64,000 bases of DNA, taken from Stappia indica (GTDB taxonomy: Bacteria; Pseudomonadota; Alphaproteobacteria; Rhizobiales; Stappiaceae). A program made the translations under genes and the position numbers. The DNA lies in NCBI RefSeq assembly GCF_009789575.1, contig NZ_CP046908.1, forward strand, positions 2,769,001-2,833,000, written 5' to 3'. Every line of letters starts with the position of its first letter. Positions within the stretch are counted from its first letter, which is position 1. Positions 8,690 to 11,125 of the stretch are shown here, piece by piece. Below the pieces are notes generated by a model. It ran no database searches, was not told where the DNA came from, and worked only from the letters and a program-made list of their open reading frames with translations.

Positions 8690-9754
8690 ATGACCCGGCT
8701 CCTGCCGGCCCTTCGGCTCCCGACGCGGCGCGCTGCCGCGCTGGCTTCCGTCATGCTGGCGGCAGCGCTGCTGCTGATGCCGGCCCCGGCCCGCGCGGTC
8801 ATCGACGTTCCCCTTCAGGACGTGACGATCCGCAGCAAGCAGATCGACGCGTTCCGCATCGGCCGTGCCGACGAGCCGCGCTTCGGCGAGCTGACCTTTC
8901 TCGGCGGTCTGGAGCTCTTGTCCGGCAACCGCCATATGGGCGGCCTGTCCGGCCTGGTCCTGAGCGCCGACGGCCGCGAGATGGTGGCGATCGCCGACAA
9001 CGGCCTCTGGCTCACCGCAACCATCGACGCGGACCCGAACGGGCGGCCGCTCGCCGTGCGCGACGCCCGCCTCGGTGCCATCATCGGCCCGAACGGCAGG
9101 CCGCTGATGGACCGCGGCCGCGGCGATGCGGAGGCCCTGGCCCTGCGCCGCAATCCGGACGGCACCGGCGAGCTCTACATGGCGACCGAGCGCTACCACG
9201 CGATCTACGCCTTCCCCTATCCGCTGACCGACCCGCGCACGCCCGGCCGCTCGATCGACCTGCCGGCCACGCTGACCGGCAACCTGCGTCACAACAAGGG
9301 GATGGAGGCGGTCGCCTTCGCCAATTCCGGTCCTCTGGCCGGCACGCTGGTCGTGGTCTCCGAACGCGGACAGACCTTCAACTCGAACCTGCCGGGCTAC
9401 CTGCTCGGCGGGTCGACACCCGGCACCTTCACCGTCCTGCGGCAGGACTCCTACGACGCCACCGACGCGGCCTTCCTCGACAATGGCGACATGGTGCTGC
9501 TGGAGCGCCGCTTCACCCTGCGCCACGGCATCGGCATGCGGGTGCGCCTGCTGCCGGCAGCGGAGCTGAAGCCCGGCGCCATGGTGGTCGGCCGCGTGCT
9601 GCTGGAGGCCGGCTTTTCCGAGCAGATCGACAACATGGAAGGCGTTGCCGTGCACCGGAATGCCGCCGGCGAGACCATCCTGACCATCGTCTCCGACGAC
9701 AACCGCTCGATCCTCCAGCGCACGCTGCTGCTGCGCTTCCGCATCGACGGCTGA
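8690..9754 (+). CDS. Exported esterase-like/phytase-like beta-propeller protein
   Basis: 354 residues with a Sec signal peptide (Arg-rich start, hydrophobic core ASVMLAAALLLM, cleavage likely after PARA near residue 36). The mature part matches the phytase-like domain family (esterase-like activity of phytase): MGGLSGLVLSADGREMVAIADNG, then GDAEALALR, NKGMEAVAF and SEQIDNMEGVAVH, the repeated G-x-E/D-A blades of a propeller. Predicted periplasmic; the substrate is unknown. It begins four bases after cobT, so it is probably in the same transcript even though the function looks unrelated. Confidence 0.8.
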   Translation: MTRLLPALRLPTRRAAALASVMLAAALLLMPAPARAVIDVPLQDVTIRSKQIDAFRIGRADEPRFGELTFLGGLELLSGNRHMGGLSGLVLSADGREMVAIADNGLWLTATIDADPNGRPLAVRDARLGAIIGPNGRPLMDRGRGDAEALALRRNPDGTGELYMATERYHAIYAFPYPLTDPRTPGRSIDLPATLTGNLRHNKGMEAVAFANSGPLAGTLVVVSERGQTFNSNLPGYLLGGSTPGTFTVLRQDSYDATDAAFLDNGDMVLLERRFTLRHGIGMRVRLLPAAELKPGAMVVGRVLLEAGFSEQIDNMEGVAVHRNAAGETILTIVSDDNRSILQRTLLLRFRIDG

Positions 9755-9786
9755 CCCCGCAGCAAGGCCGCATCCGCAAGGCCGTG

Positions 9787-9815
9787 TTGACAATGGCCGC
9801 GCATGGCGTCATCTA
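9787..9815 (+). promoter_or_regulatory. Candidate promoter for the asd leader transcript
   Basis: A perfect -35 hexamer TTGACA at 9787-9792 is followed after 17 bases by CATCTA at 9810-9815, a weak -10. Initiation near 9822 would give a transcript that starts just before an inverted repeat (TCCGGAC 9829-9835 with GTCCGGA 9843-9849) and the Thr-rich leader peptide. Confidence 0.4.
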
Positions 9816-9864
9816 GTCGCCGTCGAGGTCCGGACAGTTCCCGTCCGGATCCGCGAGGGATCCC

Positions 9865-9975
9865 ATGCCGAAGCCGAGCGCCCTTTTCAACGCCCCGTTC
9901 GCCGCGACGAAAGCCGCGAACGGTGTCGCGTGCGCCGGCACGACCACGACGACGACCCGCAAAACGACCGCCTGA
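9865..9975 (+). CDS. Threonine-rich leader peptide upstream of asd
   Basis: A 36-codon frame starts at ATG 9865, with GAGGGA at 9855-9860 (four-base spacing), and ends at TGA 9973. The C-terminal part reads GTTTTTTRKTTA: six consecutive Thr codons at 9940-9957 (ACG, ACC, ACG, ACG, ACG, ACC) and two more at 9964-9969. Such a run is the hallmark of a ribosome-mediated attenuator sensing Thr-tRNA. The downstream gene asd makes the common precursor of Thr, Met and Lys, so the sensed amino acid fits the pathway. The peptide itself is expected to have no function other than its translation. Confidence 0.7.
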   Translation: MPKPSALFNAPFAATKAANGVACAGTTTTTTRKTTA

Positions 9976-9985
9976 CGGCCCTCTC

Positions 9986-10069
9986 GACCCGCGCTCCCCC
10001 GGGTCCGAAGGGGGACCGAACGGACCTGAGGCTCCCGCAGGGATGGCGGCTTCGGGTTGGCGGGGAGCG
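9986..10069 (+). promoter_or_regulatory. Alternative hairpins of a putative asd attenuator
   Basis: Several perfect but mutually exclusive pairings follow the leader stop codon: GACCCG 9986-9991 with CGGGTC 10000-10005; TCCCCC 9995-10000 with GGGGGA 10010-10015; GGTCCG 10002-10007 with CGGACC 10021-10026. GCTCCCGC 10031-10038 pairs with GCGGGGAGC 10060-10068 (one bulge), while CGCTCCCC 9992-9999 can pair instead with GGGGAGCG 10062-10069. No U-tract follows, so the last hairpin could act on the ribosome site (AGAGAGGA, 10073-10080) or through Rho instead of being an intrinsic terminator. Which fold wins cannot be decided by eye. Confidence 0.5.
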
Positions 10070-10090
10070 GCAAGAGAGGACTGAATACCA

Positions 10091-11125
10091 ATGGCTTACA
10101 AGATCGCAGTGGTCGGCGCGACCGGCAATGTCGGCCGCGAGATGCTCGACATCCTGGACGAACGCGGCTTTCCGGCCAGCGAGGTCGTGCCTGTTGCCTC
10201 CCGCCGTTCGCAGGGCGTCGACGTCTCCTTCGGCGACCGCACGCTGACCTGCCAGGCCATCGACCATTTCGACTTCTCGGATGTCGACATCTGCCTGATG
10301 TCCGCCGGCGGCACCGTGTCCAAGGAGTGGTCGCCGAAGATCGCCGCCAAGGGCTGCGTCGTCATCGACAACTCCTCGGCCTGGCGCTACGACGCCGACG
10401 TGCCGCTGATCGTTCCGGAAGTGAACGCCGACGCCATCACCGGCTTCACCCGGAAGAACATCATCGCCAATCCGAACTGCTCGACCGCCCAGCTGGTCGT
10501 CGCGCTCAAGCCGCTGCACGATGCGGCCACCATCCGGCGCGTCGTCGTGTCCACCTACCAGTCGGTCTCCGGCGCCGGCAAGGACGGCATGGACGAGCTG
10601 TTCAACCAGACCCGCTCGATCTTCGTGAACGACCCGATCACCCCGGAGAAGTTCACCAAGCGCATCGCCTTCAACGTCATTCCCCATATCGATGTCTTCA
10701 TGGAGGACGGCTACACCAAGGAAGAGTGGAAGGTGCTGGCCGAGACCAAGAAGATGCTCGACCCGAAGATCAAGGTCACCTGCACCGCCGTGCGCGTGCC
10801 GGTGTTCATCGGTCATTCGGAGAGCGTCAACATCGAGTTCGAGCGCCCGATCACCGCCGATGAGGCCCGCGACATCCTGCGCGAGGCGCCGGGCGTGCTC
10901 GTCGTCGACAAGCACGAGGACGGCGGCTACGTCACGCCTTACGAGAGCGCCGGCGAGGATGCGACCTATGTCAGCCGCATCCGCGAGGACGCGACCATCG
11001 AGAACGGCCTCAACATCTGGGTCGTCGCCGACAACCTGCGCAAGGGCGCGGCTCTGAACGCCGTGCAGATCGCGGAAGTTCTGGTCAATCGCGGCCTGAT
11101 CACCCCGAAGAAGGCCGCTGCCTGA
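10091..11125 (+). CDS. asd: Aspartate-semialdehyde dehydrogenase
   Basis: NADPH-dependent reduction of aspartyl-4-phosphate to aspartate semialdehyde, the branch point to Lys/diaminopimelate, Thr and Met. 344 residues. The Rossmann loop VGATGNVGREML is at the N-terminus, the catalytic Cys130 lies in NPNCSTAQLV, and the C-terminal helix pattern WVVADNLRKGAALNAVQIAE is typical. The start is supported by AGAGAGGA upstream. It is a single-gene unit bounded by the Thr-rich leader before it and an intrinsic terminator after it. Confidence 0.97.
   Translation: MAYKIAVVGATGNVGREMLDILDERGFPASEVVPVASRRSQGVDVSFGDRTLTCQAIDHFDFSDVDICLMSAGGTVSKEWSPKIAAKGCVVIDNSSAWRYDADVPLIVPEVNADAITGFTRKNIIANPNCSTAQLVVALKPLHDAATIRRVVVSTYQSVSGAGKDGMDELFNQTRSIFVNDPITPEKFTKRIAFNVIPHIDVFMEDGYTKEEWKVLAETKKMLDPKIKVTCTAVRVPVFIGHSESVNIEFERPITADEARDILREAPGVLVVDKHEDGGYVTPYESAGEDATYVSRIREDATIENGLNIWVVADNLRKGAALNAVQIAEVLVNRGLITPKKAAA

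Follow-up and report, generated by a model that had tools for sequence, protein, structure and literature searches.

Here, we report that the asd gene of Stappia indica is preceded by a short threonine-rich leader frame which is real and conserved and, very likely, regulatory. The gene lies in a 64,000-nucleotide stretch of DNA (the window) for which a preliminary description had proposed a Thr leader-peptide attenuator of asd, a proposal now well supported by Thr runs that are conserved and by stems that co-vary. The routes to lysine, threonine, methionine and the cell-wall precursor diaminopimelate branch at Asd, and both Thr and Lys are derived from its product. Our preferred reading, held with somewhat better than even confidence, is that the leader is a ribosome-mediated attenuator which would read the charging of Thr-tRNA and probably of Lys-tRNA, acting near the asd ribosome site here and via a terminator elsewhere. 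Please note that the observation stands well above chance because of the comparative evidence and not because of the fold energies of the window.

All features of the window given below are on the forward strand. The leader peptide frame (9865–9975) comprises 36 codons, MPKPSALFNAPFAATKAANGVACAGTTTTTTRKTTA, running from the ATG at 9865 to the stop at 9973–9975, with a probable ribosome-binding site, GAGGGA, at 9855–9860. The control codons occupy 9940–9969: a run of six Thr codons (9940–9957; ACG ACC ACG ACG ACG ACC) is followed by CGC (Arg), AAA (Lys, 9961–9963) and two more Thr codons (9964–9969), and an Ala codon and the stop close the frame. The frame, the ribosome site, the six plus two Thr codons and the stop at 9973 had been described before, and their coordinates were confirmed from the sequence. 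The downstream gene (10091–11125), with its Shine-Dalgarno region at 10072–10080 (AAGAGAGGA), encodes an aspartate-semialdehyde dehydrogenase of 344 amino acids; it is a genuine asd, as had been supposed, and the assignment is borne out by scores of 521.9 bits against NCBIfam NF011456 (cut-off 223) and 473.6 bits against TIGR01296 (cut-off 324.2). An attenuator of this gene should have, 5' of asd, a short frame with many codons for an amino acid that the pathway makes, and such a frame is present. The leaders of the window, L037 and L016 gave no match to a leader peptide family in NCBIfam, nor did those of the window and L037 in Pfam.

A promoter-like site lies further upstream (9787–9817), composed of TTGACA at 9787–9792 and a weak −10-like TCTAGT at 9812–9817; a stricter promoter scan gave no match. 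The −35-like box is conserved: of 115 loci, 109 have TTGAC at a distance of 90–260 nt 5' of the stop of the leader, as compared with 295 of 2,300 single-base shuffles, and in 56 of those 109 it sits 161–170 nt from the stop. The leader probably starts its own transcript, as far as this box indicates. The genome of the window is a single contig of 5.1 Mb, and its closest named relative among the matches listed is Stappia sp. TSB10P1A (Asd identity 98%). The six-Thr-codon DNA pattern has three sites in these 5.1 Mb, and the same pattern reversed has 33. The other two sites, one antisense to an rpsF-like gene and one in a His/Asp-rich stretch of a cobW-like gene in another frame (gene names assigned by eye), are not Thr-coding leaders. 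No companion leader could be recognised at hom or lysC of the same genome: the single hom gene has no frame with four Thr in its tail, and lysC has four such frames, none of them Thr/Lys-like.

In the comparison, a leader was defined as an ORF ending 50–180 nt before asd with at least four Thr among its last 14 codons. The close set adds to the window 80 asd loci of named genomes, which are the best Asd matches among those listed and are therefore biased towards close kin. The order-wide set consists of 60 loci from 38 families (1–3 per family), hand-picked from an even draw of 199 of the order's genomes, 195 of which have asd; families whose asd match was too weak for listing (f4, f5, f9, f14, f27, f35, f36, f37, f44 and f47) lie outside this sample. 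The Thr-rich tail precedes asd at 79 of 81 close loci and at 35 of 60 order-wide loci, i.e., in 22 of 38 families, and is found in 46 of 2,780 dinucleotide shuffles and on 2 of 141 antisense strands; since the loci are related, these counts are not independent events. The preliminary description had staked its proposal on such conservation, naming the lack of a Thr-rich frame in close relatives as evidence against itself, and conservation is what was found. The leader is widespread, not universal, since 25 of the 60 order-wide loci lack it by the four-Thr rule; by the same rule it is absent from 16 of the 38 families, one of which (f48) has three Thr, and leaderless examples are L125 and L126 (f33), L140 (f46), and L117 and L118 (f28). 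Among the loci compared, it is the tail of the leader that is conserved and not its N-terminal part. The full leader set has 116 members: L126, with three Thr and no other likeness, was excluded, and L056 and L141, also with three Thr, were retained. Filtering these to less than 70% identity after the stop gave 33 thinned rows.

Lysine is as regular a component of the tail as threonine. Within the last 14 codons of the 33 thinned leaders Thr makes up 43% of the residues and Lys 15%, and Lys is present there in all 33, though the rows had been chosen for Thr. Both are most frequent at codons −2 to −13, and 22 of the 33 leaders end in V, A, I or G. The choice of Lys codon is reversed between leader and gene: the leader tails of the named loci use AAA 189 times and AAG 40 times (n = 229), and in the asd genes of these loci 75 Lys codons are AAA and 1,685 are AAG (n = 1,760). 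In the window, all 19 Lys codons of asd are AAG and the single Lys codon of the leader tail is AAA. For Thr, the asd genes have 914 ACC and 408 ACG, the leader tails 234 ACG and 177 ACC. The earlier proposal spoke of Thr-tRNA only; the Thr part of it is upheld, and since the Lys codons, mostly AAA, are equally regular, the charging of Lys-tRNA is probably sensed as well. We infer the latter rather than assert it, because AAA could instead serve a need for unstructured RNA.

Two helices follow the leader. Hairpin P_A begins, in the window, with the base directly after the leader stop; its 5' arm (seg2) lies at 9976–9991, its loop (seg3, CGCTCCCC) at 9992–9999 and its 3' arm at 10000–10018. The loop is a pyrimidine strand able to pair near the asd ribosome site, where its partner in helix P_B is seg4 (GGGGAGCG, 10062–10069); a spacer hairpin (10023–10058) separates the two halves of P_B. 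The stems listed in the preliminary description do exist, with the amendment that the one at 9986–10005 is just the tip of the longer hairpin 9976–9991/10000–10018. The pairing of 9992–9999 with 10062–10069, also listed there, is present in the minimum-energy fold of the window, together with one that the list had missed: CCTCTC at 9980–9985 pairs with 10074–10079 (the outer helix), so that the asd Shine-Dalgarno is covered. Taken by themselves, the window's fold energies do not exceed chance against shuffles (P_A hairpin, z −1.38, 19 of 200 shuffles as good; full region, z −0.92, 39 of 200; hairpin against 20 shuffles of another kind, z +0.62).

The comparative evidence is stronger. In a partner-swap test, one arm of one species was paired with the other arm of another in 20,000 permutations; none was as good as the native pairs, either for P_A or for P_B, and this holds for the 33 thinned rows and also at n = 41. 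With stricter thinning the values are 588/20,000 (P_A) and 1,113/20,000 (P_B) at n = 6, and 20,000/20,000 for P_B at n = 2, which is meaningless at that n. Inside the family, 8 double-change cells support P_A as compared with 2.3 in shuffles (0/500), with 93.3% of cells paired; for P_B plus the outer helix 87.3% of cells are paired and the covariation is not above that of shuffles. The compensatory changes in the stems that had earlier been proposed as a check are indicated for P_A and P_B by partner-swap and for P_A also by covariation, and the two helices may exclude each other. All eight P_B bases fall inside the P_A loop in the window, and 129 of 231 overall, where the mean loop length is 7.8 nt and 36 nt were searched. 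In 27 of 33 thinned species one local hairpin begins no more than 5 nt from the stop; an early start is seen in 75% of shuffles as well, so that the position by itself says little. The energies of these local hairpins average z −0.98 against shuffles and are below −1 in 17 of the 33.

The conserved partner of seg3 sits just 5' of the Shine-Dalgarno (−40 to −13). Across families no conserved strand pairing with the Shine-Dalgarno itself was found, and seg3 fails the swap test against the last 22 nt, i.e., the Shine-Dalgarno (16,805/20,000). The outer helix was rejected as a general mechanism, the first 14 post-stop nucleotides against the last 25 nt giving 9,334/20,000 across families. Post-stop nucleotides 31–60 pass against the last 50 nt before asd (9/20,000), a signal that perhaps comes from the spacer hairpin. 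The swap test gave no support for pairing between the leader codons and post-stop nucleotides 1–20 (8,867/20,000; second run, 12,147/20,000). With post-stop 21–50 the codons pass (6/20,000; second run, 31/20,000), but we take this as a mere hint of a third state without translation, because the paired pieces are ragged and L063 alone weighs heavily. Rfam includes families for the thr operon leader, the lysine riboswitch and the lactic-acid-bacterial asd motif; it gave no match for the window at the gathering threshold, none for 9780–10110 at E up to 1, and no leader match in 12 of the 80 named loci. The sole hit in those loci, away from the leader, was an ffh sRNA (RF01793) downstream of asd in Mesorhizobium soli (L053, 2796–2847, 61.7 bits).

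The absence of a U-tract had been remarked on before, and indeed there is no terminator-like site in 9500–10400; the intrinsic terminator that follows the leader in a classical transcription attenuator is not found here. Inside the order, 1 of 116 leaders is followed by a terminator-like site; outside it, 10 of 17 are, all ten in one family. The outside leaders come from a class set of 153 genomes (143 with asd), which gave 40 regions outside the order in 35 families (L170 is without an asd start). By eye, four of these 40 loci (L146, L149, L176 and L178) have a Thr/Lys leader before asd, and the orders to which they belong yielded 17 leaders in 34 genomes (11/16, 2/14, 1/1 and 3/3). The order of G320 (L183–L195), with Thr/Lys leaders before asd, is in the scans the only outside-order source of terminator-like sites after leaders; an antiterminator/terminator-like pair with a U-run can be seen by eye after the stop, e.g., in L189 a 9-pair stem, AGGCCGCAT-CCAG-ATGCGGCCT, followed by TTTTTGTTTT. 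By eye, asd in this order looks to be under classical transcription attenuation. In these terminator-bearing leaders the first competing strand comes right after the stop, as it does in the window. For G288 and its two relatives, the scan listed no terminator-like site after the leader. In L208 and L209 (order of G341) the tail ETKTKTKKTTV is followed by an antiterminator/terminator-like pair by eye, for which the terminator scans listed no site, perhaps owing to an A-run that lengthens the stem into the U-run.

From these elements a switch may be proposed. If Thr (or Lys) were short, the ribosome would stall in the control codons, and the nascent RNA after the stop would fold into P_A (9976–10018), which would keep seg3 in the loop and leave the asd ribosome site free, i.e., ON. 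If Thr and Lys were plentiful, the ribosome at the stop would cover most of the 5' arm of P_A; seg3 would be released and would pair with seg4 (10062–10069) just 5' of the asd Shine-Dalgarno, and, in this genome, P_B would be extended by 9980–9985 onto the Shine-Dalgarno itself. With seg3 and seg4 paired, translation of asd would fall, perhaps followed by Rho termination. P_A is read as the ON state mainly because the terminator-bearing relatives place their first competing strand right after the stop. A more specific version, to which we incline only tentatively and with slightly less than even confidence, is that of a two-amino-acid sensor (Thr, and Lys via the disfavoured AAA) whose loop is the blocking strand and controls asd translation, with a terminator as the output elsewhere, i.e., the output was swapped and the sensor kept. 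If Thr and Lys were both counted, one RNA would tune a shared step to two of its products. To our knowledge, few amino-acid attenuators act on translation rather than on transcription; a single kind of leader that has a terminator as its output in some lineages and not in others makes output swapping testable, and the reversed AAA/AAG choice gives a clean prediction on which tRNA is read.

The direction of this switch was examined by folding the 33 thinned rows with the ribosome in either position. The preliminary description had the stalled ribosome turn asd on, which fits the geometry and the terminator-bearing relatives, whereas equilibrium folding points the opposite way: the asd site (−18 to −4) is easier to open when the ribosome sits at the stop than when it is stalled, by a mean of 1.10 kcal/mol, only 8 of 33 species going the model's way (p 0.00065) and the window opposing the model by 6.2 kcal/mol. 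When P_A is imposed, i.e., treated as formed first during transcription, stall and stop do not differ for −18 to −4 (19/33, p 0.62); for longer sites the stalled state is favored by 0.57 kcal/mol at −25 to −4 (19/33, p 0.34), 0.87 kcal/mol at −30 to −4 (19/33, p 0.11) and 1.71 kcal/mol at −35 to −4 (23/33, p 0.009). The opening gained by P_A over equilibrium is 1.58 kcal/mol as compared with 0.65 kcal/mol in shuffles (p 0.02); the equilibrium opening itself does not differ from that of shuffles (p 0.81). P_A exceeds 50% at equilibrium in just 6 of 33 species, and if the model is right, the switch must be kinetic. The imposed-P_A folding would lend at best modest support to the stall-ON direction, and nearest-neighbour energies, as computed here, leave the direction unsettled. 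Masking of the blocking strand by a ribosome that stalls at the final Thr codons was considered and rejected, because the Thr cluster of several families (L101, L102, L114 and L130) is farther from the stop.

The same folding result bears on two other readings. One reverses the polarity: a ribosome near the end of the leader would cover the strand blocking the Shine-Dalgarno of asd, and finished leader translation would therefore mean asd ON. The mean of −1.10 kcal/mol is in its favor, and the effect is strongest in the window, through 9980–9985/10074–10079; the outer helix, however, is unsupported across families (9,334/20,000), and under starvation such a switch would reduce the amount of a biosynthetic enzyme. 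It also contradicts the terminator-bearing leaders, and we regard it as quite improbable. The other takes P_A and P_B together as one H-type pseudoknot beside the asd ribosome site, a repressed state opened by leader ribosomes, with loop and partner strand adjacent and not overlapping, as one structure rather than two alternatives would have it. The same eight bases do indeed serve as P_A loop and as P_B strand in the window, and the stems do not overlap; both helices pass the swap test, and the easier opening with a ribosome at the stop fits opening by ribosomes, bearing in mind that the program cannot fold pseudoknots. Against this stand the overlap of P_A stems with the P_B strand in several species and the strain of a fully paired 8-nt loop; moreover, starvation would lower asd unless a stalled ribosome reached P_A, and most Thr/Lys codons are too far upstream for that. 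We consider the pseudoknot unlikely.

About equally unlikely, in our judgment, is that the leader acts on transcription via Rho or pausing, the downstream fold setting the access of Rho to the polymerase in the 5'-UTR. The lack of an intrinsic terminator and the use of transcription termination by relatives in another order agree with this, but the co-varying seg4 adjoins the asd ribosome site, a position that control of transcription would not need. Finally, there might be no regulator at all, if the Thr run simply resulted from a GC-rich ACG/ACC repeat or if the small protein acted alone. It is true that the fold energies of the window lie within those of shuffles, and that the leader of the closest relative (L003) differs from that of the window at four positions, each of which changes an amino acid; given the conservation of the tail relative to shuffles and the antisense strand, the reversed choice of Lys codon and the coupling of the RNA helices, we attach hardly any probability to it. 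The ribosome-mediated attenuator of asd remains our preferred reading.

Among known systems, the leader resembles thrL, which has Thr and Ile codons and an intrinsic terminator before thrABC in enterobacteria, in being a leader peptide with a run of Thr codons before a gene of the aspartate family; unlike thrL, it combines Thr with Lys, lacks a terminator and has asd as its target. The leaders of other orders (L183–L195, L208 and L209) share with the window the target, the codon mix and the competing strand right after the stop. In drug-inducible translational attenuators of the ermC type, a stalled leader ribosome frees a downstream ribosome site without any terminator, and the proposed asd switch would follow the same stalled-leader logic, with uncharged tRNA instead of a drug as the signal. 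It is also like the cysS uORFC-8-2 motif of Rhodobacterales, described in PMC8632094 as having Cys codons and an intrinsic terminator and controlling a tRNA synthetase gene, in being an alphaproteobacterial leader peptide with control codons. Points in common with the LEU element before leuA in Actinobacteria (PMC1262725) are a leader peptide with a run of codons, pairing that engages the Shine-Dalgarno of a biosynthetic gene, and a possible pseudoknot. In the LEU element it is the Leu codons that engage in this pairing; the asd leader fails the swap test between its codon region and the last 30 nt (3,933/20,000).

The preliminary description knew of no described case at asd in alphaproteobacteria, which needs to be qualified by SEP5 of S. 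meliloti. According to PMC10117765, published in 2023, this small ORF has six Thr and three Lys codons near its 3' end, lies in the 5'-UTR of a gene named there "aspartate dehydrogenase", is translated as judged by Ribo-seq and a tagged Western blot, and might, it is suggested there, be a leader peptide. In our set, three loci of Sinorhizobium (L037, L047 and L077) have exactly the SEP5-type tail before asd, and from this identity we infer that SEP5 and the asd leader are the same element. SEP5 is stated there to be conserved only in Sinorhizobium, with no RNA switch described in the passages on it; the asd leader occurs in 22 of 38 families and comes with a hairpin and its partner strand, and as judged from the loci compared, its range is far wider than that stated for SEP5. 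Judged by term counts and passages, asd is absent from PMC1273637, PMC2965389, PMC8632094, PMC1262725 and PMC4833913; Vitreschak 2004 and Lopatovskaya 2010 may mention it.

Several leaders of the set depart from the common form. In L079, L080, L081 and L094 a short-spacer form is seen, in which 77 nt separate the stop from asd and the last codons include Met and Ile; by eye, the pyrimidine strand lies here in the loop of a CCGCCCC/GGGGCGG hairpin. Ile stands beside Thr in the tails of L060, L063 and L074 (KIIV, KTITIA and KTTIII), as Ile codons stand alongside Thr in the enterobacterial thr leader, and the amino acids sensed may drift between lineages.
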